This document shows positions 665 through 32,300 of a stretch of 42,242 nt of DNA, one piece after another. The stretch spans positions 1 to 42,242 of the IMG/VR virus record IMGVR_UViG_3300009285_004767; one strand, 5' to 3'. This DNA comes from a virus. The notes beneath the pieces were generated by a model that worked only from the letters and a program-made list of their open reading frames with translations, was not told where the DNA came from and made no database searches. Positions within the stretch are counted from its first letter, which is position 1, and each line of letters begins with the position of its first letter. Made by a program: the position numbers and the translations under genes.

Positions 665-932
665 CGTCCTTCCCCTTTGGTTATCTGTGGAGAGTGAGGG
701 AGTCGAACCACGCCGAACTCCAAGCCTAGTCAATGCTTGGCGGTTTTGCGCTTGTCATTGCCCGTCCGCCCGTCTACGTCCAAGCCGAACGTTGCCGGGG
801 TTAAAGTCCTTCGCGCCGTCTGATCTCATCGCCCGGCGGAGTGCCTGCCGGGGGGCCGGGCTTGCAACCGGCCTGCGCGTTAACCCGGCCTAAGCCGGGC
901 TGCTCCGCTCTTTCCCCTCCCCCGCCTCAAGA
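665..932. other. Intergenic region: tRNA-like 3' half and hairpin
   Basis: No convincing gene is seen in these 268 bases. On the minus strand 740-686 reads like the 3' part of a tRNA: a six-pair stem CCAAGC/GCTTGG with a nine-base loop, then GGTTCGACTCCC and an acceptor-like end CTCTCCACA. The T-stem pairs badly and no 5' acceptor half is visible, so it is not an intact tRNA. A hairpin CCCGGC-CTAA-GCCGGG lies at 884-899. The phrase around 859-880 recurs at 1311-1332. Confidence 0.35.
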
Positions 933-1193: not shown

Positions 1194-1375
1194 CTTCCCT
1201 TTCCTTCCTTTCAATTTGCCGGAACTTCCGGCTTCGCGCGCGGCGCTGATCCGATTCAAGCCGCTCCGCCGCGCCGCGGTTGTCCAACGGTCGCTCTTCG
1301 CGCCATCTTGCAACCGGCCTGCGCATTACCCCGCCCGGAAGCGGGGCGCTCTGCTGCTATAGGCCACGGTCAGCC
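1194..1375 (-). repeat. Leader repeat copy E (twin hairpin) plus extra hairpin
   Basis: Read on the minus strand, this is the leader of the gene at 1193. The distal hairpin has arms GCGCGGCG (1238-1245) and CGCCGCGC (1267-1274). The proximal hairpin is GCCGGAA-C-TTCCGGC (1218-1232). A purine SD tract follows, then the start. Upstream of the core, a further hairpin CCCCGC/GCGGGG lies at 1327-1344. The same arrangement occurs in copies D, C and B. Confidence 0.8.
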
Positions 1376-2402: not shown

Positions 2403-2744
2403 TTACCAGCCCCGCTCCTTTTTGATGTCTTCCTCAATCTGGTGTAGTTTTTGGAGAGACACGGGCGTAGGTGTGGTCAGCCCGTGCTCCCAACTTGAGA
2501 TGGTTCTGATCGTCACGCCCATTATCCGGGCGAATTCGGCTTGGGTCTGGTTTAGACCTTGCCGCAGTTGGCGGATTTGGAGGGAGACTTCCCTCTCCTC
2601 TTCCCACTCCAACTTCTGGCGGAGAAATGTGGCTTCTTCCGTCGACGCCGCCTCCGCCTGCGCCTCCGCCGCCTTTGCTGTTTTGAGAAGCGCCCACGCT
2701 GCCTCATCCGCCCGCGCCCTCGCTAACTTTGTTGCCTTCTTCAT
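2403..2744 (-). CDS. XRE-family helix-turn-helix regulator, 113 aa
   Basis: Residues from about 55 to 108 form a Cro/C1-type helix-turn-helix: LRQGLNQTQAEFARIMGV, then TIRTISSWEHG and a short C-terminal helix. The N-terminal half is a charged, Ala/Glu-rich helix that may mediate dimerisation. The start at 2744 follows AAGGGGAAGAAG; the longer frame runs into the leader. It is the first gene behind the leftward promoter at 2817-2846 and faces the rightward promoter at 2955-2983, the usual place for a switch regulator. Its actual target sites are not shown by the sequence. Confidence 0.85.
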   Translation of the reverse strand: MKKATKLARARADEAAWALLKTAKAAEAQAEAASTEEATFLRQKLEWEEEREVSLQIRQLRQGLNQTQAEFARIMGVTIRTISSWEHGLTTPTPVSLQKLHQIEEDIKKERGW

Positions 2745-2750
2745 CTTCTT

Positions 2751-2783
2751 CCCCTTTCGGTTTTGCCGGGAAGCCCCCGGCTC
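2751..2783 (-). repeat. Partial leader repeat copy A (single hairpin)
   Basis: Only the proximal half of the leader repeat is present before the XRE gene: hairpin GCCGGG (2765-2770) with CCCGGC (2776-2781), A-rich link and SD tract. The distal hairpin is missing. It lies between the promoter at 2817-2846 and the gene, so it is part of the mRNA leader. Confidence 0.7.
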
Positions 2784-2816
2784 GGCACGCCCATCATCCC
2801 GACGAGCGTCAACCCC

Positions 2817-2846
2817 AATATACTGCTCCCCCCCCGCACTTGTCAA
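2817..2846 (-). promoter_or_regulatory. Leftward sigma70-type promoter with C8 tract in the spacer
   Basis: On the minus strand TTGACA (2846-2841) and TATATT (2822-2817) are separated by 18 bases. Eight consecutive C/G bases (2828-2835) lie inside that spacer. It is positioned to transcribe the XRE gene and the small-gene cassette leftward. A change in tract length would change the promoter spacing. Confidence 0.75.
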
Positions 2847-2893
2847 GTATTTTCTCATCTTTTTTCAGAAATCTGTAAATAGTTTGTAAGCGG

Positions 2894-2954: not shown

Positions 2955-2983
2955 TTGACTCGGCGTAAATGGCTCCCTAGATT
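2955..2983 (+). promoter_or_regulatory. Rightward sigma70-type promoter
   Basis: TTGACT (2955-2960), a 17-base spacer and TAGATT (2978-2983) face right towards the duplicated module and the packaging/structural genes. It diverges from the promoter at 2817-2846. No other equally good rightward promoter was found upstream of terS. Confidence 0.65.
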
Positions 2984-3145
2984 GAGGGCGGTCAATAGAC
3001 AGCATAAGCCCTGCCTCAACCAAAAAGATTATGCGCAGCCGCAGGATTGCCTTGCCCTCCCGCCCGACCGGGGAGGCGCGTCACGAGGCTAACTGCTACT
3101 TCCATCCACACATACACCCGCAGACGGGCTGCCCGGCGGAGTAGG

Positions 3146-3265
3146 ATGGCGGGGAAAGACGGCGGGAGAGGGAGCAATCGGGATAAGGGCAAGGCGGGCA
3201 GCTGTCGTCGTATCGCGGGCGCCTCAGAGGTCCAGCAGGTCACCCGGCCCTGGCTGGCGGCGTAA
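3146..3265 (+). CDS. Possible 39-aa basic protein, copy A
   Basis: ATG at 3146 follows GGCGGAGTAGG and opens a 39-codon frame for a basic Gly/Arg/Lys-rich peptide. It lies in the part of the tandem module that is identical between units, so conservation cannot be used to test coding. It could equally be structured RNA. Confidence 0.25.
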   Translation: MAGKDGGRGSNRDKGKAGSCRRIAGASEVQQVTRPWLAA

Positions 3266-3271
3266 CCGGGG

Positions 3272-3295
3272 CTCATAGCCGGAGATGGCTATGAG
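3272..3295 (+). other. Perfect 9-bp hairpin, unit A
   Basis: CTCATAGCC (3272-3280), loop GGAGAT, GGCTATGAG (3287-3295). No T-run follows, so it is not a typical terminator. The same hairpin occurs in unit B at 4131-4154. Confidence 0.7.
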
Positions 3296-3423
3296 GGAGG
3301 AGAGCTATATCCGGGAGAGCCGGGAGCGCAGAGGGAATGGCCACGCGGGGGCGCGCAAGGGATAAGGATCGCGCGTGAGCGATTTGGCGCGGGCGGATCC
3401 CGCGCGGGCGGGAGCGTGATGAC

Positions 3424-3500
3424 GGCAAAAATTGCCTGCTGTAGATCAACGGAGAGGCGCGATCTCGGTGCGGGGCGATATAATATATGGCGGGATCCCG
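3424..3500 (+). promoter_or_regulatory. Conserved block with TATAAT and small hairpin, unit A
   Basis: A small hairpin GGCAA-AAA-TTGCC (3424-3436) is followed by about 60 bases that are nearly unchanged in unit B (4292-4368), including TATAAT at 3479-3484. No good -35 box is present at the usual distance, so promoter function is uncertain. High conservation while the flanks diverge suggests a function. Confidence 0.4.
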
Positions 3501-3595
3501 CAAGTGGCCGGGCGCGGAAGCCTCTCATATAGGGATCGCGTGCGCGTGAGCTGGGGGATTCCGGGCTTCGGGAGGGGCTCAGTAAGAGGGGGATT

Positions 3596-3778
3596 GTGGC
3601 TAACAAAAGGGCGGTCTTACTGCGCGGGATCATTGCCCGTGCCTGCGTCTGTTGTCACGCCGTGATAGGCGCTAGCGAGTGGTTCGTCTCGGCTTGCCCG
3701 CGGCGCGGCGTAATCTGCGGGCGGTGCGCTGAGCGGGAGGGGAAGGAGGCGCGAAGGCGAAACGGAGGTATAGATTGA
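3596..3778 (+). CDS. Small CxxC zinc-ribbon-like protein, 60 aa (copy A)
   Basis: The GTG start at 3596 follows AAGAGGGGGATT. The protein carries CVCC near residues 18-21 and CGRC near 41-44, a likely two-knuckle metal site, and has a basic tail. A diverged paralogue sits at 4552-4746 with all these Cys kept. The surrounding DNA has drifted while both frames stay open, which is good evidence that it is translated. No named family is recognised. Confidence 0.65.
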   Translation: MANKRAVLLRGIIARACVCCHAVIGASEWFVSACPRRGVICGRCAEREGKEARRRNGGID

Positions 3779-3821
3779 TACGGTTGCGCTGGTGATCGGG
3801 GCTTGGCGCCGTCTGCAAATC

Positions 3822-3836
3822 CTGCCATAATGGCAG
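3822..3836. promoter_or_regulatory. Near-palindromic dyad, unit A
   Basis: CTGCCATAATGGCAG is palindromic except at its centre. The matching site in unit B (4788-4802) differs at one base. It lies upstream of the terS-like start in both units and could be an operator, though no binding protein can be named. Confidence 0.4.
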
Positions 3837-3924
3837 TTGCGTCACAACTTGATTGCTAATGGCTATCAAAATGGCAGTAATTACCCCTTGTCGGAGCGAA
3901 TCCGGCGAGGGCGTTTTTTTTGGA

Positions 3925-3968
3925 GTGCCGATTTACACCTTGACAAAATACCTGCCCGAATACGACGA
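3925..3968 (+). pseudogene. Truncated terS start (duplicate)
   Basis: The first 14 codons of the terS gene at 4890 recur here with the same GTG start and T-run upstream. At 3969 the sequence changes abruptly into the start of unit B. The frame stays open into unrelated sequence until 4137. It is best explained as the edge of a tandem duplication; a short leader peptide cannot be excluded. Confidence 0.65.
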
Positions 3969-4004
3969 ACATACACCCGCAGACGGGCTGCCCGGCGGAG
4001 TAGG

Positions 4005-4124
4005 ATGGCGGGGAAAGACGGCGGGAGAGGGAGCAATCGGGATAAGGGCAAGGCGGGCAGCTGTCGTCGTATCGCGGGCGCCTCAGAGGTCCAGCAGGTC
4101 ACCCGGCCCTGGCTGGCGGCGTAA
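4005..4124 (+). CDS. Possible 39-aa basic protein, copy B
   Basis: Identical in sequence to the frame at 3146-3265, with the same upstream GGAGTAGG. Retention of identity over 210 bases may reflect recent recombination between the units rather than protein selection. Real translation is unproven. Confidence 0.25.
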   Translation: MAGKDGGRGSNRDKGKAGSCRRIAGASEVQQVTRPWLAA

Positions 4125-4130
4125 CCGGGG

Positions 4131-4154
4131 CTCATAGCCGGAGATGGCTATGAG
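4131..4154 (+). other. Perfect 9-bp hairpin, unit B
   Basis: Same stem and loop as 3272-3295, lying at the end of the identical block of unit B. Confidence 0.7.
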
Positions 4155-4291
4155 GGAGGAGAGCTATATCCGGGAGAGACGAGAGCGCCGAGGGAATGGC
4201 CACGCGGGGGCGCGCGAGGGATAAGGATCGCGCACGAGGGGTTTGCGTCGCTGGCCTTGTCGGGCGGGCGCGAGCGTGGCCGGGCAAAAGC

Positions 4292-4368
4292 GGCAAAAAT
4301 TGCCTGCTGCAAATCAACGGAGAGGCGCGATCTCGGTGCGGGGCGATATAATATATGGCGGGATTCCT
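4292..4368 (+). promoter_or_regulatory. Conserved block with TATAAT and small hairpin, unit B
   Basis: Counterpart of 3424-3500, with TATAAT at 4347-4352 and the same GGCAA-AAA-TTGCC hairpin at 4292-4304. The flanking sequence differs strongly from unit A. Confidence 0.4.
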
Positions 4369-4551
4369 CAAGTGGCTGGACGCGGAAGCCTCTCATAAGG
4401 ATCGCGTGCGCGCGTGAGCGGCGCGAGTGACTACACAAGAGGGCGGGGAATGAGGCAGTTAGTTGTCATCGGGGGCGCTTCGGGTCCCGGGGAGTCTCAG
4501 GTCGTGGGGTTGCTGGAGCTTTGGCGCGTCAAGCCGGTCGGTGAGGGTTAG

Positions 4552-4746
4552 ATGGGAGGGCGGGCTTCCAAGCGACGGGATATATTGACTAAGGCCATTA
4601 TTGCCCGTTCCTGCGTCTGTTGTCACGCCGTGATAGCTGGGGGGGATTGGTGCGTAAGGTTGGAGCGTGATCGGGGGGTTATCTGCGGGAGGTGCGCGGA
4701 GCGGGAGGGGAAGGAGGTGCAGCGGCGAAACGGAGGCATAGGTTGA
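4552..4746 (+). CDS. Small CxxC zinc-ribbon-like protein, 64 aa (copy B)
   Basis: ATG at 4552 follows GTGAGGGTTAG. This paralogue of the 3596-3778 product keeps both Cys pairs (CVCC and CGRC) and the block GVICGRCAEREGKE, while its N-terminus and the centre have diverged. A Trp-Cys pair in the middle adds a fifth Cys. A compact zinc-binding fold is inferred. Its position just upstream of terS suggests a packaging or regulatory accessory role, but this is context only. Confidence 0.7.
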   Translation: MGGRASKRRDILTKAIIARSCVCCHAVIAGGDWCVRLERDRGVICGRCAEREGKEVQRRNGGIG

Positions 4747-4787
4747 CGGACTCGCTAATGATCGCGGCTTGGCGCCGTCTGCAAAAC

Positions 4788-4802
4788 CTGTCATAATGGC
4801 AG
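4788..4802. promoter_or_regulatory. Near-palindromic dyad, unit B
   Basis: CTGTCATAATGGCAG matches the unit A dyad except at position 4 and lies about 90 bases before the terS start. Confidence 0.4.
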
Positions 4803-4889
4803 ACCTGTCGGAACTTGCTTGGATTGGGACGGATTTTGGTAGTAATTAACCCTTGTCGGAGCGTATCCGGCGAGGGATTTTTTTTTGGA

Positions 4890-5282
4890 GTGCCGATTTA
4901 CACCTTGACAAAATACCTGCCCGAATACGACGAGGCGGTCTATCTGCATATGTCTGGCGGTCTCTCGGCCACGTCGTTCGGCGGGGTCGTTCATGTGTCA
5001 AAACAGACCTTGCAGGAGTGGCGGAAAAAGTGGCCGGGGTTCGACCAGGCAATCTTTCGGGGTGAACCGGCGCGGCAGCTCTATTGGGAACAACGGCTTA
5101 AGGCTACGGGCCGAATGGATTGCGCTCCGGTGATGTTTGCGCTCAAAAACTGTAGTCGTAATTCGGGCGAGGATCAGTTCACGGACGTGCGAGAGATGAC
5201 TCTTGACGCGCCGGGGTTGGAGGCGGCAATACTAGGCAAGTGGGGCGCGCACCCCACGGATAAAACAGGAGAATCGAAATGA
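4890..5282 (+). CDS. terS: Terminase small subunit-like protein, 130 aa
   Basis: The N-terminal 60 residues form a helix-turn-helix of the kind seen in phage small terminases: a YLPEYDEAVYLHMSGG helix, then SKQTLQEWRKKWPGFDQAI. After this comes the FALKNCSRNSGEDQ segment, resembling the A-[LM]KN-R region of these proteins. The subunit recognises phage DNA for packaging by TerL. I choose the GTG at 4890 (SD GCGAGGGA, then T9); an upstream TTG at 4815 is possible. It overlaps the next gene as ATGA. TerL lies 2.6 kb downstream, separated by two secreted-type genes. A truncated copy of the start lies at 3925. Confidence 0.75.
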   Translation: MPIYTLTKYLPEYDEAVYLHMSGGLSATSFGGVVHVSKQTLQEWRKKWPGFDQAIFRGEPARQLYWEQRLKATGRMDCAPVMFALKNCSRNSGEDQFTDVREMTLDAPGLEAAILGKWGAHPTDKTGESK

Positions 5283-6155: not shown

Positions 6156-7817
6156 ATGAGAAAGTATATCATAGCGCTGTGTGCGCTTCTTCCGTTCGTT
6201 GTTGTCGGGCAGTATGTGACGGACGTGTTCCCGGACGACGGGTCGAAGGTATTGATTTACGGCGCGAACAGCGCAGGAAACGGCACTACGACGGTTGGGT
6301 TCAACGAGTTGATTTCGACGGGGGCATTGGGTTCGGCTCCGAACTATGTCGGTTACTGGTGTCGCGTCATTCACGACGCTGGGGGCGCTGGGACGGCTCC
6401 TCAGACGCAGATGCGCCAAGTTACAGGTTACAGCTCGACGACGGGGGTGTTGACGTTTGCGACGGGGTTTGCGAACGCGCTTGCGTCGGGCGACAAGGTT
6501 TATCTTTTTCCGGGTTCATCGTTGCAGGCGATCTGTGGGACGGAGGGCGTCCCGGCGGTAACCGCGACGAAGCTTGCGGCAGGGGAGAACCTTGCGGACG
6601 GGATGTTGTATATCAATAACACTGCCGACACGGTCAACAACAAACTTGAGTATGCAGAGGATATGGCAGAGAGCACTCGTGATTCTTTGTCATATATGCA
6701 CAAGTTGCTATGGGGGGCTGCCGGGCTGCCTGCGCTAACGGGGACTCGCTTGGCAGCTGGTGGTGGCGTATCGGCCGGGGAGGGGTTACTGTTCATCAGC
6801 GATGCCACGGACTCGGTCTATAAGTGGGTCGGCGGTGCGGATGGCGCGACGTGGGGGACGGCGGCGGAGCCTGCGGCGGGCGTGAATCTGCTTGAGGGCT
6901 TCGGGTATGCCCAGAACCAGCTTGACTCGGTTGTTGGTGCGTCGTATGGCGCGGTCGGGTCGCAATGGTCGCAGTCGGCTGCCTCGTATGTGGCGGGCGT
7001 GTCGCACGAGCAGGTTTTGATGGACTTGCAGGATCAGATGGATACTGTCAATGCCGTCAAGCTTGAGTATGCAGAGGATATGGGGGAGAGCACTCGTGAC
7101 TCCCTGTCGTATCTTCATAAGCTATTATGGGGAGCCGACGGATTGCCTGCGCTAACCGGCGCCCGTTTGGCAGCCGGCGGCGGCGTATCGGCTGGTGAAG
7201 GATTGCTGTTCCTCAGCGATGCGGTTGATACAATGAATGCCGTCAAGCTTGAGTATGCGGAGGATATGCAGGAGGGTATTCGTGATTCGCTTGAGGATGC
7301 GAATGACCATTTGCAGACGCTTCTCGGCGTTACGGCTGGGTTTGTGTCGGAAAATATCTGGACGACGGTTGAGGTAGTCGTCAACTTTGCTGCTGCCGGA
7401 GCGTGGGAGGATGCTGCAACGACTCACGAGTTATTTGATGTGACGGGTGACGTGGAGTTTGAAGTGACCGCGTTCTGTTCAACTGATGTTGCTGTAACGA
7501 GCGCTGACTCATTCTTTGTTGGCGCCGGCGATGGCGCTGGGGCCAATTTCCAAATCTGGCGGATACTGGGTTCGGATTTGGACGCGGGCGAGGGGTGCTT
7601 TCGTGGGTGTGGTTATTCGGCGGCTGCGGTTATTCCGACGGCTGCTCAACTCGGCGGGTCAGGCGGTGTATGGCGTGGGACGTCGATGAATGGGCAGGAC
7701 ATTGGGTTTGACATTGACGACAACGATTTTACTGCCGGAATCGTGGTGTTCTACTGCCGCTGGCGACCGGTAACGACGGGCGGGTCGGTAGCTGCGGGCG
7801 TTGGCGGGGCTCTATAA
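6156..7817 (+). CDS. Secreted-type repeat protein, 553 aa
   Basis: The ATG at 6156 follows a TAAGGG SD. Residues 1-18 form a signal peptide. Residues about 50-125 and 400-553 are similar to the upstream protein. Between them lie two ~55-residue repeats (163-217 and 302-356) beginning KLEYAEDM and ending in SDA, plus a shorter third copy from 364. The repeats join helical EDM..RDSL segments to a Gly/Ala-rich segment, as in elongated fibre shafts. Function is unknown; a surface fibre or secreted adhesin is my inference. Confidence 0.7.
   Translation: MRKYIIALCALLPFVVVGQYVTDVFPDDGSKVLIYGANSAGNGTTTVGFNELISTGALGSAPNYVGYWCRVIHDAGGAGTAPQTQMRQVTGYSSTTGVLTFATGFANALASGDKVYLFPGSSLQAICGTEGVPAVTATKLAAGENLADGMLYINNTADTVNNKLEYAEDMAESTRDSLSYMHKLLWGAAGLPALTGTRLAAGGGVSAGEGLLFISDATDSVYKWVGGADGATWGTAAEPAAGVNLLEGFGYAQNQLDSVVGASYGAVGSQWSQSAASYVAGVSHEQVLMDLQDQMDTVNAVKLEYAEDMGESTRDSLSYLHKLLWGADGLPALTGARLAAGGGVSAGEGLLFLSDAVDTMNAVKLEYAEDMQEGIRDSLEDANDHLQTLLGVTAGFVSENIWTTVEVVVNFAAAGAWEDAATTHELFDVTGDVEFEVTAFCSTDVAVTSADSFFVGAGDGAGANFQIWRILGSDLDAGEGCFRGCGYSAAAVIPTAAQLGGSGGVWRGTSMNGQDIGFDIDDNDFTAGIVVFYCRWRPVTTGGSVAAGVGGAL
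6642..6806 (+). repeat. Internal direct repeat, copy 1
   Basis: Encodes the first ~55-residue repeat of the 6156-7817 protein. It differs from copy 2 mainly at synonymous or conservative positions, so the repeat is kept at protein level. Confidence 0.75.
7059..7223 (+). repeat. Internal direct repeat, copy 2
   Basis: Second copy of the repeat at 6642-6806. A truncated third copy begins at about 7245. Confidence 0.75.
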
Positions 7818-7892: not shown

Positions 7893-9674
7893 ATGTTGCG
7901 AGAGCTTGTAGATTGGCCGTTGTTGATAGGGAACCTTCGTTCGCCGAAGTTGTTTCCGTCTTACTGTGTTGATTTTCTGAAGATACAGACGAAGGAGGCG
8001 TTGTTTGTTCCCTTTGAGTTTAATTTTTCGCAGCGACTTGCTTGGGATTTGATTGCGCCTCACGTTCAGGCTGGTGGGCGGTGGATAGTGTTGAAGGCGC
8101 GGCAGGTTGGTATCAGCACATTGATAGAGGCGATAATAGATTGGCGGACGAGCCTCAACAGCGACGTAAGTTCTTTGATAATGGCGCACGATGCGGACAC
8201 TTCAAGTCGGTTATACAAGATGTTTAGGACTTACACAGAATACAAGCCTTCGTGGTTGCGTCCTCGGATGGCCAGTAGCGGGAATGAGAAGGGATTGAAT
8301 TTTAAGAGCATTCGGTCGAGTGTGCGGGTGATAACGGCGGGGTCTAGGGTTGCGACATCAGGCGATACTTTCCATTGCGCCCATTTGTCAGAATATGCGA
8401 AGTGGGATCATCCGGTAGAGGTTATGACGTCGCTCACGCCGACGTTGCCTAAGAATGCGCTTGTATTTATAGAATCAACGCCTTACGGATTGGGGAACGA
8501 CTTTTATTTGCGTTGGATAGCGGCAAAGGAAGGGCGGAGCGACTACATTCCGATATTTCTTCCTTGGTATAACGATCCGGGCTATACACTAGACAAGGTT
8601 AGAGTAGGGAATAATGAGGCTTATGACGCTGATCCGACCAAGGCTGAACGTTATTATGTTGACAGGTATAATCTCAATCAGGGGCAGATGAATTGGATGC
8701 GTTGGATGGTGGATACAGATTTCAATGGTTCGTTTGACGGGTTCATTCAGGAGTATCCGTTTGATGATGTAAGCTGCTTTCTTTCGAGCGGGAAGCCATA
8801 TTTTGATATGGGTGCGTTGCGCAATTTGGATTTAGAATTGCGGAAAGCGCGTCACGCGGTGTTGCGTGGTGAGTTCGATAGTGCGGGGCAATATTTTCCG
8901 GGCGGGGATGAGGATGTGACGATTTGGGATGTGCCGAATCCGGCGGAGCAAGTTGCCTATCGGTATGTGATATCGGCGGATTGTTGCGAGGGCGGGGGTG
9001 GGAATGTTGTAGATGACGGGCAGAAGCGGACGGGTGATACGGATTGGAATTACTGCATAGTCAGGGATAAGGTTCTTGATGTGCAGGTAGCAGAAATACG
9101 GAATAAAAAAGACCCCGACTTGTTTGCGGATCAGTTGTTCTGGATTTGGCGGCTGTATGGCAATGGGTTGTCGCCGGCTTACTGGCCGTTGATGATAGTG
9201 GAACGTAACAACCCTGGGCAGGCGGTTCTTCTGCGATTGCGGCAATTGCTGACCCAGTATAAGGTTCCTTACTCGCGTCTGTTCCATCAGGGTGATATGA
9301 ACAAGGACAATGAGCCGACGTTGAAGGATTTGGGATTTAGAACGCAGAAGGGGGGCGATGGCGATAGGTTAGCGATATTGGCGGACGTTCAACGGCGGAT
9401 ACGGCTTGGCAAATCCGGCGTTCTGTCGCAAGTAATCATAGATCAATGCCTGACGTTTATTAAGGATAAGAATCAGAAGCCGATAGCGCAGGAAGGGCGA
9501 TATGATGACGGGGTGATAGCGCTGGCCTTGAATTATGAGGGGGAGCGTCGGGATAATCCGGCTTGGGAGTTGCCGAAGCCAGTCAGGCGGTCGGCGTTTG
9601 ACGAGCGTATGATGCGCCAGAAGCAGGGGTTAGACAAGAATCGCTCAGGATACAGGAGAAACCGTTACGCCTGA
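7893..9674 (+). CDS. terL: Terminase large subunit, 593 aa
   Basis: The ATPase/nuclease that drives genome packaging. A Walker A-type motif KARQVGIST is at residues 68-76 and a Walker B-type strand ALVFIEST at about 189-196. The C-terminal RNase H-like nuclease shows acidic residues in SAD (363), VER (437) and YDDG (538-539). Length is normal for the family. ATG at 7893 is the first canonical start, although the frame is open back to 7818. The only good SD lies before a hairpin at 7832-7881. The gene ends eight bases into the portal reading frame. Confidence 0.93.
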   Translation: MLRELVDWPLLIGNLRSPKLFPSYCVDFLKIQTKEALFVPFEFNFSQRLAWDLIAPHVQAGGRWIVLKARQVGISTLIEAIIDWRTSLNSDVSSLIMAHDADTSSRLYKMFRTYTEYKPSWLRPRMASSGNEKGLNFKSIRSSVRVITAGSRVATSGDTFHCAHLSEYAKWDHPVEVMTSLTPTLPKNALVFIESTPYGLGNDFYLRWIAAKEGRSDYIPIFLPWYNDPGYTLDKVRVGNNEAYDADPTKAERYYVDRYNLNQGQMNWMRWMVDTDFNGSFDGFIQEYPFDDVSCFLSSGKPYFDMGALRNLDLELRKARHAVLRGEFDSAGQYFPGGDEDVTIWDVPNPAEQVAYRYVISADCCEGGGGNVVDDGQKRTGDTDWNYCIVRDKVLDVQVAEIRNKKDPDLFADQLFWIWRLYGNGLSPAYWPLMIVERNNPGQAVLLRLRQLLTQYKVPYSRLFHQGDMNKDNEPTLKDLGFRTQKGGDGDRLAILADVQRRIRLGKSGVLSQVIIDQCLTFIKDKNQKPIAQEGRYDDGVIALALNYEGERRDNPAWELPKPVRRSAFDERMMRQKQGLDKNRSGYRRNRYA

Positions 9675-11550
9675 ATTAAGCCAAGACATACTTGACCAGC
9701 TTACTCCAGAAGAGTTAGTTGATCTCGCCGCGGAGGATGCGAAGGCCAACGAGCAGCGCGCCCGGGATGCGTTTGAGGTCACAGAGACGTGCGCAATCCT
9801 GCTTGACCATTGGTATTCGCACTTCGAGCATTTTAACGAGAATATGTCGCTGGTCTATGGGGATCAGATTCCGAATGACGACCAGGCGGCGCTTCAGGAC
9901 GATGATCGGCCAATCGTCAATCGGAATATCGTTCTCCCCAAGGTTCTCCAGTATCTTGGCAGTTCTCTGAAGCGTCAACGTTCTATTGCGGCGTTCCCTG
10001 TGGATAGTAACGGAGACGATGCAATTGCGGCGAAGATAACCAAGCTTTTTAAGCATACCGAACAAGACAATGATATGGATTATATTGACTTGCAGGTAAG
10101 GGGGAGCGCCGCAATCAATAAAGTGGGATGGTATTACATTCCTCCGCCTGCGCCAGACGCAGAAGGCGACGACTTGCTTGTAAAGGTGTATTTTGAACCC
10201 CCTGAGAATGTGTTGCTTGACGCTGATGCGAGAGACTTGGATCAGAAGACTTGGCGGCGTGTTGGTCATCGGAGTTGGATGTCTGTGGAAGATATAATGG
10301 GCTTGTGGTCGGAATACGCGGATGAGATCAGAGATAAAGTAAAGGATGGGGATAAGAATTGGAACACTCTGACGGAGCGAATCAGACAAGGGGTTAGGCC
10401 AGCGTCAACGATAGAGCGCGGAGCCACGTCGAGCACCTTGATTTTGAAGAATGCCGACGTCTATGACAAGGTTAATCAACTCTTTCTTATTCTGTGTTTA
10501 TGGGAGCGGAATTATAGATGGGGGGCAAATGGGAAGCGCGAGGCCTATATGCTCTTGCGGATTGCAATTCCCTATCTCAATTTTGGGCTTGGCCGTTATG
10601 AACTTCCGTTGAAATACTATCCGTTTGTTCTTAATCAAAGTCTGAACTTTGGCTCAACGGTGATTGACACGGCGAGTTATGTTGATCAACTTAGGCCATT
10701 GCAGGAAGAGAAAAACCGCGTATCGGCAATGGCAGAGGATGCAATGAGCCGGGCGGTTGCGGAAACGCTCATCTTGGGCAAAGGCGAGGAGACGCTTAAA
10801 GAAGCGATCAAGAAGAATGGTTCTAAGCCGGGGATTTATACCGCTGCAACAGATAATCCTGTTGCTGACAGGATCAATTCGGCGGGGATCAGCGTTGGGG
10901 TGCAAGAATATATTGCCAAACTTGACGTTGATATTGAAAAAATAAGCGTCTTGCCTCCTGCGGTCGGTGGGGCGGCGGAGAACAAAAGCGAGTCAGGGAG
11001 CTATTTTGCGCAGAAGGTGGACCAGGGCGAGCAGTCTATTGAGATATTCAGCTTCATTGAAAACCGGAAGGTTAAGAAGCTGCTCTATCGAGTCATCCTT
11101 GAGCGCTATCAGGTTTATTATACAGCGCCTATGGCGCTGAGGATATTTGGCGAGCAACCCATCCAACCAGGCGTCCCAATTCAAAATCAGCCTAAATATG
11201 CGGATGTGGCAATAAACCAGATTGATTGGGCGACCGGGTCTATTCTTGACGACATAACAGTTGGTCGTTACGATGTAGTTATTGATGATGTGAATTACAG
11301 TAATTCAGTCAGGTCAGAGGAGTTACGTGTGTTGGTTGACGCGCTAAAAGTTGTTCCCCCGCAAGTTGCGGCGCTCCTCCTTCCTGAGTTCATAAAGAAT
11401 CTTCCGCTTGAGCGGCGTCTTGAATTTTCGGCAATGGCCGAGCAAGTGCTTGCTCCGTTCATAATGCAAGCAATGAATCCGATTCCTCCCGCAGAAGAGG
11501 GCGCTGTTGGGAATAGGAGAACAATACAATCGCCCCAACCGGCTATATAG
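9667..11550 (+). CDS. Portal protein, 627 aa, probable ACG start
   Basis: Resembles podovirus (P22-type) portals: an acidic helical N-terminus, RNIVLPKVLQYLGSSLKRQR near residues 85-104, a long middle domain and a C-terminal helical barrel region. The portal forms the ring through which DNA enters the head. Coding-like sequence (LTPEELVDLAAEDAKANEQ) extends well upstream of the first ATG at 9844. From the in-frame stop at 9631 to 9844 there is no ATG, GTG or TTG. An SD (AGGAG, 9654-9658) sits eight bases before ACG at 9667, which is taken as the start. A sequence error turning ATG into ACG is the main alternative. Confidence 0.85.
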   Translation, partial: TPELSQDILDQLTPEELVDLAAEDAKANEQRARDAFEVTETCAILLDHWYSHFEHFNENMSLVYGDQIPNDDQAALQDDDRPIVNRNIVLPKVLQYLGSSLKRQRSIAAFPVDSNGDDAIAAKITKLFKHTEQDNDMDYIDLQVRGSAAINKVGWYYIPPPAPDAEGDDLLVKVYFEPPENVLLDADARDLDQKTWRRVGHRSWMSVEDIMGLWSEYADEIRDKVKDGDKNWNTLTERIRQGVRPASTIERGATSSTLILKNADVYDKVNQLFLILCLWERNYRWGANGKREAYMLLRIAIPYLNFGLGRYELPLKYYPFVLNQSLNFGSTVIDTASYVDQLRPLQEEKNRVSAMAEDAMSRAVAETLILGKGEETLKEAIKKNGSKPGIYTAATDNPVADRINSAGISVGVQEYIAKLDVDIEKISVLPPAVGGAAENKSESGSYFAQKVDQGEQSIEIFSFIENRKVKKLLYRVILERYQVYYTAPMALRIFGEQPIQPGVPIQNQPKYADVAINQIDWATGSILDDITVGRYDVVIDDVNYSNSVRSEELRVLVDALKVVPPQVAALLLPEFIKNLPLERRLEFSAMAEQVLAPFIMQAMNPIPPAEEGAVGNRRTIQSPQPAI

Positions 11551-27308: not shown

Positions 27309-27512
27309 GACTATTTCGACCTGACGCTTGGACAGGAACACACCTGTTTGGCTCGTTCTTCCTGTCCTGTCTTTGCCAGCACTTTATCCCGGGAAAAGTC
27401 TTATACAAGCACCTGTGTGATGCTATTCCAAAGTTAGTGTATCTTTCAGCACAAGTCAATAGGGGAGGCAAACTATTTTGATGGTTCGCAAAAATAACCG
27501 GAGGACATCCAA
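27309..27512. other. Gap before the lysis cassette: hairpin and antisense promoter copy
   Basis: No gene is convincing here. GGACAGGAA (27330-27338) and TTCCTGTCC (27359-27367) form a nine-pair stem followed by a short T-rich stretch, a weak terminator candidate. Downstream is a leftward promoter-like copy (27431-27459), then AGGGGAGG and GGAGGAC purine boxes before the TTG start at 27513. Confidence 0.45.
27431..27459 (-). promoter_or_regulatory. Leftward promoter-like copy, antisense to the tail spike
   Basis: On the minus strand TTGACT (27459-27454), a 17-base spacer and TAACTT (27436-27431). Over 23 bases it is identical to the promoter at 30348-30376 and ends with the same CTTTGG. If active it would transcribe into the tail-spike gene in antisense. 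Confidence 0.5.
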
Positions 27513-30009: not shown

Positions 30010-30372
30010 CTTATATAGCTCCTTTGGATTAGGGGGGAACAACCAGAGCACGCTTGCATAAGGAACGACCTTGCTTGCGCAAGGGCGGGCAGAGCCCACC
30101 CCCCTATTTCCCCCCTCCCGTGTAGTAAAACACGGTTTGACGCTTCGGGTTTTGCCAAAACCCTCTCTTTCCTATCCGCGCTTCGACCACTATCCTCCGG
30201 TCTATTTTGGGCTCGCGGTGTTAGACGCATCGGAATGAACCGCCCCTTAATGCAGAAGCCCGGAGCAGGTCATATCTACTCCGGGCTTCGCTTCCACCAG
30301 ATAGTGGCGGAACGGGAATCTTGAAGCAAATATGACTTGCTGAACCAAAGATAAGGAATCTTTCAGCACAAG
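30010..30372 (-). other. Long structured leader, no gene seen
   Basis: About 330 bases separate the promoter start site (near 30341) from the gene at 30009. They hold a perfect 11-pair hairpin GAAGCCCGGAG (30255-30265) with CTCCGGGCTTC (30279-30289), a smaller one GGGTTTT-GCC-AAAACCC (30147-30163) and GC-rich inverted segments. No good frame with an SD is present. The first hairpin could be a terminator for upstream genes or an attenuator for downstream ones. Confidence 0.55.
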
Positions 30373-30376
30373 TCAA
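30348..30376 (-). promoter_or_regulatory. Leftward sigma70-type promoter
   Basis: TTGACT (30376-30371), 17-base spacer, TATCTT (30353-30348) on the minus strand. The -35 region CTATTGACTT is shared with 27431-27459 and 40348-40376. It overlaps the 3' end of the gene at 30373-30594 and would drive 30009 to 29108. Confidence 0.7.
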
Positions 30377-30594
30377 TAGGTCGGCGAAGATATTTGCGGC
30401 TCGGCGAAAGATTGTCGCTCCGCGGCGAGGGCGGTTAGATATTCATTCACCGCGCAGAGCGTCTCGAATACGATAACGCGATTGACATCACGATCACAAA
30501 GATATAGATCATACTTGCCTGAATGCCGCCGATATAATCGGTGCCCTAGCTTGAGGGCGCGGTCGCGGGTCTGTTCAAACGTTCTATGGCTCAT
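30373..30594 (-). CDS. Small basic hypothetical protein, 73 aa
   Basis: The start at 30594 is preceded by GGAGGACGAGA and lies inside the end of the previous gene. It has a basic helix, a short beta segment (YDLYLCDRDVNRVIVFETL) and a helical tail. No family is named. A longer frame from 30651 overlaps the upstream gene and is rejected. Confidence 0.6.
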   Translation of the reverse strand: MSHRTFEQTRDRALKLGHRLYRRHSGKYDLYLCDRDVNRVIVFETLCAVNEYLTALAAERQSFAEPQISSPTY

Positions 30595-30807: not shown

Positions 30808-31800
30808 TCATAACCCTAACCCCGTTTGAATACAGTGCGGGCTAAAGAACAGCGCCTCGCGGAATCGGTTACGCTTGCCGCGTGAATCCCCGCCGTTGCG
30901 GGCTGTATTCCCATACCCGCCGCGGGTTTTCCATAGATGAACGCGCCATCCTTCATTCAACAGCGACTCGTGCTCTTCGTAATAGCCTGCAAGGACTATG
31001 CGATAAGACGGGCGTTCAGCGCGGGCGCGGCACCATTCCCGCACATCGGTTGCGATAGACTTGGAATCGTGAGAATAAACATCTTCACGGTCTTCAACGC
31101 TATAAGGCGGGTCAAAGAATATCCCCACTTCATCGCCCTTTACTTTATCCTGCCAATCCCCGCCGCATACTTGTGTCCAATCTCCGCAAACGACGCGGAC
31201 ATTGCGAAGCCGTTCAGACAACGCCCTGAACCAATCATAGATTAAGGTGTTGTAAGGATCAGTTACAGCACGCCGTTCAGTATCTTGCTGCGGCCTCGTT
31301 CCAATCTTATGAACGCCCACACCAGCATCCGCAAGGTGCGGTATCTTCCCAATCTTATGAACGCCCATACCAGCACACCCAAGGTGCGGTATTGCATTGA
31401 CCCTGGTTAAGCCCGCTCCGATCCAGCAGCTTGCCGCCCAAATCCAGTATCCGGCGAGCTTTGCGTTATAGTATTCGTCACTCGCTATCAACTGCTGAAG
31501 CAGGGCGTTCTGTTCCCTAAGTAGAACGATGCGGCGGGCGCATAGATCGGCGTGGTTAACAAGCCAATCACACCATTTTGCAACCTCATCCGGCGCGGTC
31601 TGAAGCGCACGCCAAACATTGCACAACAACCCGTCCTTGTCATTCACGGTCTCAACGTGCTGGGTCGGGTCATAGTAGGGGCGGGCGAGCAGAACAGCGC
31701 CTGAGCCAAAGAATGGTTCGATATAATGTTGAGTTTGCCCTAATGCGTTCCAGACGACAGAAGCGACGGGGGCTTTTCCACCAAAGTAAGATATTCTCAA
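30808..31800 (-). CDS. dam: D12-class DNA adenine methyltransferase, 330 aa
   Basis: The N-terminus RISYFGGK and the SAM-binding motif EPFFGSGA (residues 28-35) together with the catalytic DPPY (230-233) identify the Dam/D12 class. It methylates N6 of adenine, probably shielding phage DNA from host restriction. A 16-residue unit beginning IPHL and ending VHKIG(K/T) occurs twice in tandem near 137-168. A hairpin lies between the only strong SD (AAGGAG at 31840-31835) and the ATG. The recognition site cannot be read from sequence. Confidence 0.88.
   Translation of the reverse strand: MRISYFGGKAPVASVVWNALGQTQHYIEPFFGSGAVLLARPYYDPTQHVETVNDKDGLLCNVWRALQTAPDEVAKWCDWLVNHADLCARRIVLLREQNALLQQLIASDEYYNAKLAGYWIWAASCWIGAGLTRVNAIPHLGCAGMGVHKIGKIPHLADAGVGVHKIGTRPQQDTERRAVTDPYNTLIYDWFRALSERLRNVRVVCGDWTQVCGGDWQDKVKGDEVGIFFDPPYSVEDREDVYSHDSKSIATDVREWCRARAERPSYRIVLAGYYEEHESLLNEGWRVHLWKTRGGYGNTARNGGDSRGKRNRFREALFFSPHCIQTGLGL
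31301..31396 (-). repeat. 48-bp tandem duplication inside the methyltransferase gene
   Basis: Two head-to-tail copies of a 48-bp unit (starting at 31301 and 31349) differ at several bases and keep the frame, adding 16 residues. It lies before the target-recognition/catalytic DPPY region. Confidence 0.7.
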
Positions 31801-31853: not shown

Positions 31854-32300
31854 TCACCACTTACTCCCTGTTGACTTCTGGCCGGTCTGGTTCCGGAGCC
31901 GCGCCTTCTCGTGAAAGCCCGCGCACATCCGGCAATAACTGCCTCCCTCGCGGAGGTTGGAACAACCCCGCTCCGCGCATAAAAGCAGGCGAGCATTATC
32001 ATTGTCGGGCGGGAGATCGCCCCACTCCGTTGATTTACGAGCGGCAGTTTTTGCCGGTCGGGAAGGGGTCGACCGAATTGAACGGCGATAGCAAGATTCG
32101 CAGCGTTTGGCGCGGGCGCGGTTTATCGGCTGGCCGCAATCTATACAGATCGGCTCCATTGCCGTTCTTGGGCGCCCATAGTGTTTGCCGCTCGCCAACT
32201 TGGTCTGGAAGCCGCGACACCATCGGCAGAGGCCGTCAACATTGCCGCGTGAAAGCGGCTTACCGCAGGCGCAGATGTCGGGAGCAAGGGAGTCACTCAT
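31854..32300 (-). CDS. Multi-zinc-ribbon protein, 148 aa
   Basis: Three Cys clusters in order: CACG/CRWC (about 10-28), CIDC/CESC (about 52-71) and CAERGC/CRMC (about 107-126). Each can form one zinc knuckle pair. A basic Lys/Arg/Thr linker lies between the second and third. A nucleic-acid-binding role is inferred. It overlaps the upstream gene by ATGA. Confidence 0.65.
   Translation of the reverse strand: MSDSLAPDICACGKPLSRGNVDGLCRWCRGFQTKLASGKHYGRPRTAMEPICIDCGQPINRARAKRCESCYRRSIRSTPSRPAKTAARKSTEWGDLPPDNDNARLLLCAERGCSNLREGGSYCRMCAGFHEKARLRNQTGQKSTGSKW

Follow-up and report, generated by a model that had tools for sequence, protein, structure and literature searches.

The complete virus record IMGVR_UViG_3300009285_004767, which belongs to a tailed phage and whose full 42,242 bases form the window analysed here, carries a blunt direct tandem duplication ahead of terS, the gene for the terminase small subunit. 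Unit A (3110-3968 (+), 859 nt) is followed by unit B (3969-4933 (+), 965 nt). The ends of the two units are identical and their cores have diverged, and inside this diverged core a predicted promoter and a predicted intrinsic terminator have been conserved. terS lies behind both terminators. We propose that the unit acts as a gate of the late operon, present in duplicate and operating in the manner of the Q-pR'-tR' modules of lambda and 21, a reading to which we give about an even chance.

Tandem duplication with identical ends

Self-comparison of the window revealed a common order of elements in units A and B. The first 210 nt of both units are identical (3110-3319 (+) in copy A, 3969-4178 (+) in copy B), and so are the last 55 nt (3914-3968 (+) in unit A, equal to 4879-4933), which comprise a T tract and the first codons of terS. 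The full gapped alignment of the units contains 143 substitutions in 856 aligned columns. In gap-free blocks of the core 80 of 449 positions differ (18%), and the cores are further set apart by large indels and by parts that have lost any similarity. The preliminary description had reported the same ordered elements, about 210 identical first bases and a drifted remainder with indels, all of which is confirmed by the unit alignment. It had placed the duplication at 3110-4935; the start of this span stands, but its end does not, since unit B stops at 4933.

This pattern is not what a uniform spread of substitutions would produce, as none of 10,000 column shuffles reproduced an identity run of 210 nt. 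At the divergence of the core (80/449), 210 sites would all stay the same with a probability of about 1e-18, and a tail of about 57 nt with one of about 1e-5, which implies that the identical ends had a history different from that of the core. A shorter identical run of 52 nt is found within the diverged core itself (3445-3496 (+), copy B 4313-4364). It overlaps a stretch with the only similar DNA that we detected elsewhere in the 42,242-bp record: 44 nt of the core (3423-3466 and 4291-4334 (+)) recur at 32013-32056 (-) (87%), within the gene of a multi-CxxC protein (31854-32300) and in the same reading frame (AK.A..KSTE..DL).

The junction between the units (3968/3969), where we looked for microhomology and found none, falls after codon 15 of terS, whose GTG lies at 4890; the earlier claim that the join cuts the start of this gene is hence correct. 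Because the right end of the unit is located 15 codons inside terS, unit A ends in a truncated terS start (VPIYTLTKYLPEYDE, 3925-3968 (+)) that reads on into a fusion ORF of 70 aa, and unit B continues into the intact gene (4890-5282 (+), 130 aa). The latter was assigned through its match to phrog_309 (E 1.4e-5), tblastn to annotated TerS proteins and an alignment with TerS relatives, as well as through its position before terL and the portal gene. The AlphaFold model of TerS, built from the single sequence, was of too poor quality to be used. The gene order is terS, TerL (7893-9674), a P22-like portal (9844-11550; PF16510, 2.8e-44) and the major head protein. The ORF between terS and terL (6156-7817) contains internal repeats at 6615-7291, with spacings of 417 and 186.

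As the virus record derives from a metagenome, the duplication could in principle be a chimera of two strains that arose during assembly or amplification. We consider this very improbable. A k-mer assembler would find no overlap to exploit at the join, and the copies are set apart by 143 substitutions plus indels; with so many differing sites (more than 140) and a blunt join, neither the collapse of k-mers nor the repetition of an identical end is a likely cause. Neither DNA-level searches of phages, plasmids, IMG/VR and GTDB nor a scan for exact patterns in IMG/VR and the GTDB genomes turned up a relative of the module. Single-protein searches of IMG/VR (TerS, TerL and portal) and of GTDB genomes (portal) returned no close relative, and alignment-guided searches with TerL and TerS recovered distant relatives only, without the module.

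Conserved promoter-like sites and terminators

Both cores contain an extended -10 promoter-like site (TTGGCG-17-CATAAT with TG), located at 3803-3831 (+) in copy A and at 4769-4797 (+) in copy B. The block that runs from the -35 to just past the -10 (3800-3836), 17-nt spacer included, is conserved at 35 of 37 positions (95%), compared with 67% and 49% in its flanks. The support is modest, with a best-window permutation p of 0.036 and hexamers that score only 9/12. Comparing A and B by eye, we saw no conserved -10-like pause element after the promoter, nor did we see by eye a repeated Q-type binding site in its conserved spacer. Another promoter-like site (TTGACT-17-TAGATT, 2955-2983 (+)) reads into unit A and diverges from that of an HTH_3 regulator gene (2403-2858 (-); PF01381, E 2.4e-9; phrog_8 and others), which is oriented away from the module.

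Near its right end each unit has an intrinsic terminator, with the GC-rich stem and following T tract of rho-independent terminators. Copy A (3885-3921 (+)) has an 11-bp stem of -19.0 kcal/mol followed by T8, and copy B (4850-4886 (+)) has the same stem, one loop change and T9. The sole stem/loop substitution between the copies thus falls in the loop. With -19.0 kcal/mol they are the two best hairpin-plus-T-tract terminators of the genome, the next one with T7 or longer reaching -7.9, and terminator B ends 3 nt ahead of the terS GTG. Taken alone, the conservation of the terminator did not reach significance when windows were permuted (p = 0.11).

One could argue that this is an ordinary recent duplication, produced by illegitimate recombination between sister phages that infected the same cell and carried different alleles of the core, that the terminators merely end a leader operon and that the module has no special role. 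One such event would account for the identical ends, the diverged core and the blunt join, and mosaic phage genomes commonly show this kind of allele joining. We nevertheless judge it unlikely, given that terS, the first gene of its operon, stands directly behind a terminator, with no promoter-like site found between the two, and that promoter and terminator are conserved within a diverged core.

A small CxxC gene in the diverged core

The core of each unit also encodes a small ORF with a CxxC-x20-CxxC pattern, of 60 aa and with a GTG start in copy A (3596-3778 (+)), and of 64 aa and with an ATG start in copy B (4552-4746 (+)). Comparison of the two copies yielded a dN of 0.27 and a dS of 0.75 (dN/dS about 0.37). 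Third codon positions account for 22 of the differences, first positions for 11 and second positions for 15. Substitution patterns show, then, that this ORF evolves as a protein-coding gene. Codon statistics for the other mini-ORFs of the units were uninformative, and even the CxxC ORFs scored low.

No relative of the CxxC protein was found in Pfam, PHROGs, PDB, phages or IMG/VR, and no sequence match to antiterminator families; the protein does not fall into the Q families (PF03589, PF06530, PF06323). A low-confidence model of copy B has a strand-hairpin-helix order, and its structural matches were weak, non-significant and mostly to zinc fingers. The protein may, with low confidence, be zinc-finger-like.

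Recombination as the likely cause of the identical ends

Two causes had been put forward for the uneven identity of the units, recombination over the identical block and selection on a structured RNA; our results favour the former and speak against the latter. If selection were at work, the 210-nt block would be a structured cis-acting RNA or DNA element (a packaging RNA, a put-like antitermination RNA or a binding site) held identical in both copies. It is true that 210 identical nt adjoin a diverged core, and that the block contains a perfect 9-bp hairpin (CTCATAGCC-GGAGAT-GGCTATGAG, 3272-3295 (+), copy B 4131-4154) that carries GGAG in its loop and precedes an ATG. However, folding of the block spoke against such an element, its energy being the same as that of shuffles (z = -0.01), and a search of the region against Rfam gave no match at E values up to 5. 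The stable, conserved secondary structure of a phi29-type pRNA or a put RNA was not found, and neither were iterated boxes or sites in the 210-nt block. Furthermore, full identity next to core spacers that cannot be aligned is stricter than what is seen in known RNAs, and the tail is equally frozen despite holding a dead gene start. Altogether we regard a structured element as quite unlikely.

Given the divergence of the CxxC gene (pS 0.47, dS 0.75), the probability that the synonymous sites of the dead terS start in the tail remained unchanged is about 0.004. Selection on TerS cannot hold the tail identical, because the tail carries a truncated, non-functional start of the gene; and a dead terS 5' end in the tail, together with a coding gene with a dS of about 0.75 in the core, makes selection on every base implausible. 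Selection is hence a poor explanation for the pattern: the block folds like shuffles, a dead gene start is frozen, and similarity has been partly lost in the core while the block has lost nothing.

The identical ends are best explained, from the comparison of the copies, by recombination rather than by base-by-base selection. Two routes would lead to this outcome. In the first, RecT-type homogenization would keep recombining the long identical ends, and could not act on the indel-rich core. In the second, a single illegitimate event would have joined two sister-phage alleles that were alike outside the core. Either route is made plausible by a RecT-like single-stranded DNA annealing protein encoded by the phage (37615-38826 (-); phrog_4171, E 4.7e-20), and this annealase is a plausible engine of repeat homogenization. 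A likeness, of pattern only, can be found in animal mitochondria, where duplicated control regions are reported to evolve in concert (PMC4523187).

A proposed doubled gate before the late operon

The rationale of the gate is as follows. The duplicated control region would separate the divergent HTH regulator from a late operon headed by terS, and a polymerase coming from 2955 or from the promoter of either unit would meet a strong terminator before terS. Expression of the late operon would then need read-through by a termination-resistant RNA polymerase. Antitermination might be supplied by the CxxC protein, a candidate antiterminator, or by a host or phage factor, and the duplication would set two gates in series. 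We infer here that the promoters are used, that antitermination takes place and that the CxxC protein has a role in it. A Q-like working is proposed because small regulator gene, promoter, terminator and late genes follow each other as they do in Q modules (PMC6606751, PMC7171158), in which the terminator is an intrinsic one and the Q binding elements lie within the promoter, spacer included (PMC6606751). In the phage this order is recognized by sequence signals only.

The likeness to the Q systems of lambda, 21 and 82 resides in the order of elements and in the conservation of the entire promoter, spacer included, in the phage units too. Lambda Q, moreover, carries a Zn-binding motif (PMC7171158). 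In contrast, the phage protein is only 60-64 aa long and lacks a Q-family match, no Q binding repeat or pause element is recognizable, the terminator abuts terS and the whole module is doubled. Another parallel is the Caulobacter GTA cluster, in which GafZ reads through three terminator repeats of 150 bp arranged in tandem (PMC11150451). As in the phage, these terminator-bearing tandem repeats (terGTA) lie near the start of a packaging and structural cluster, but they follow its first gene, whereas the phage units are of 0.9 kb and have a gene and a promoter each; GafZ also differs in having a sigma-factor-like HTH. Xp10 P7 resembles the CxxC candidate in being a small phage protein, and it enables the host RNA polymerase to read past intrinsic terminators located ahead of late genes (PMC6624301), with no sequence relation shown between the two proteins. 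AlpA is a further known parallel (PMC9371919).

The preliminary description had also considered a pac or cos function for the region. Since a promoter-plus-terminator gate and a gene with cysteine pairs survive in the diverged core, the conserved core elements point, on the sequence comparison, more towards control of the late genes than towards a pac or cos site. Packaging may still have given rise to the duplication. The unit would then correspond to the terminal redundancy of a phage with headful packaging, the two ends of a packaged molecule having been joined without homologous recombination, and the borders of the unit would be terminase cuts (pac near 3110, the headful end inside terS). 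The join is indeed blunt and inside terS, as end-joining of terminally redundant molecules would yield, the unit length, about 2% of the genome, is of the size one might expect of a terminal redundancy, and the portal is P22-like. Moreover, in an unrelated phage with a TerS relative (locus L105), a separate tandem duplication of independent origin (3519-3851 and 3852-4012) likewise has a join that interrupts the 5' end of terS, in the first codons near a KYKPEY motif. Yet such a repeat was seen at only 1 of 75 TerS loci, the 210-nt block has no iterated sites, and the conserved promoter and terminator of the core would be left unexplained, so that we hold this origin to be rather unlikely, if the least so of the alternatives to the gate. 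Direct terminal repeats of 12 nt or more were not found at the ends of the record.

The distant relatives give the gate no support: a terminator within 250 nt before terS was found in 3 of 59 distant TerS relatives and is hence rare. At the locus of one distant TerS relative (L116) we observed a hairpin plus T7 located 17 nt before terS.

If the gate holds, a protein of about 60 residues without known relatives would open two serial terminators before the packaging genes of an orphan phage, as a compact alternative to the Q, P7 and GafZ systems. With its two diverged copies, the genome also offers an internal comparison between parts kept by selection (promoter, terminator stem and Cys pairs) and parts kept by recombination. 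In an unlikely but more elaborate form the gate would be a two-step relay: the early transcript would yield only the first zinc-finger-like protein, which would open terminator A; the second protein would then be made, and together they would open terminator B, releasing terS and the late operon. Such a relay would represent a new family of very small antiterminators, with a gate duplicated in series and its shared ends kept alike by recombination.

Other elements in the record

In the left arm, two Twister-P5 ribozymes lie between small genes on the minus strand, at 856-908 (-) (51.3 bits, which exceeds the gathering score) and at 1303-1355 (-) (35.4 bits, which falls just short of it). The left arm also contains an intergenic repeat element on the minus strand (1195-1275, 1689-1769, 2034-2114, 2306-2386 and about 2736-2772), made of a GCCGGG..CCCGGC hairpin and a purine-rich stretch resembling a ribosome site, ahead of successive small genes. 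A 72-nt direct repeat (27407-27478 and 30324-30395, 72%; core TCTTTCAGCACAAGTCAATAGG) flanks the lysis gene region, and a 48-nt tandem repeat (31289-31384) is found within a DNA methyltransferase ORF (30808-31800 (-)).
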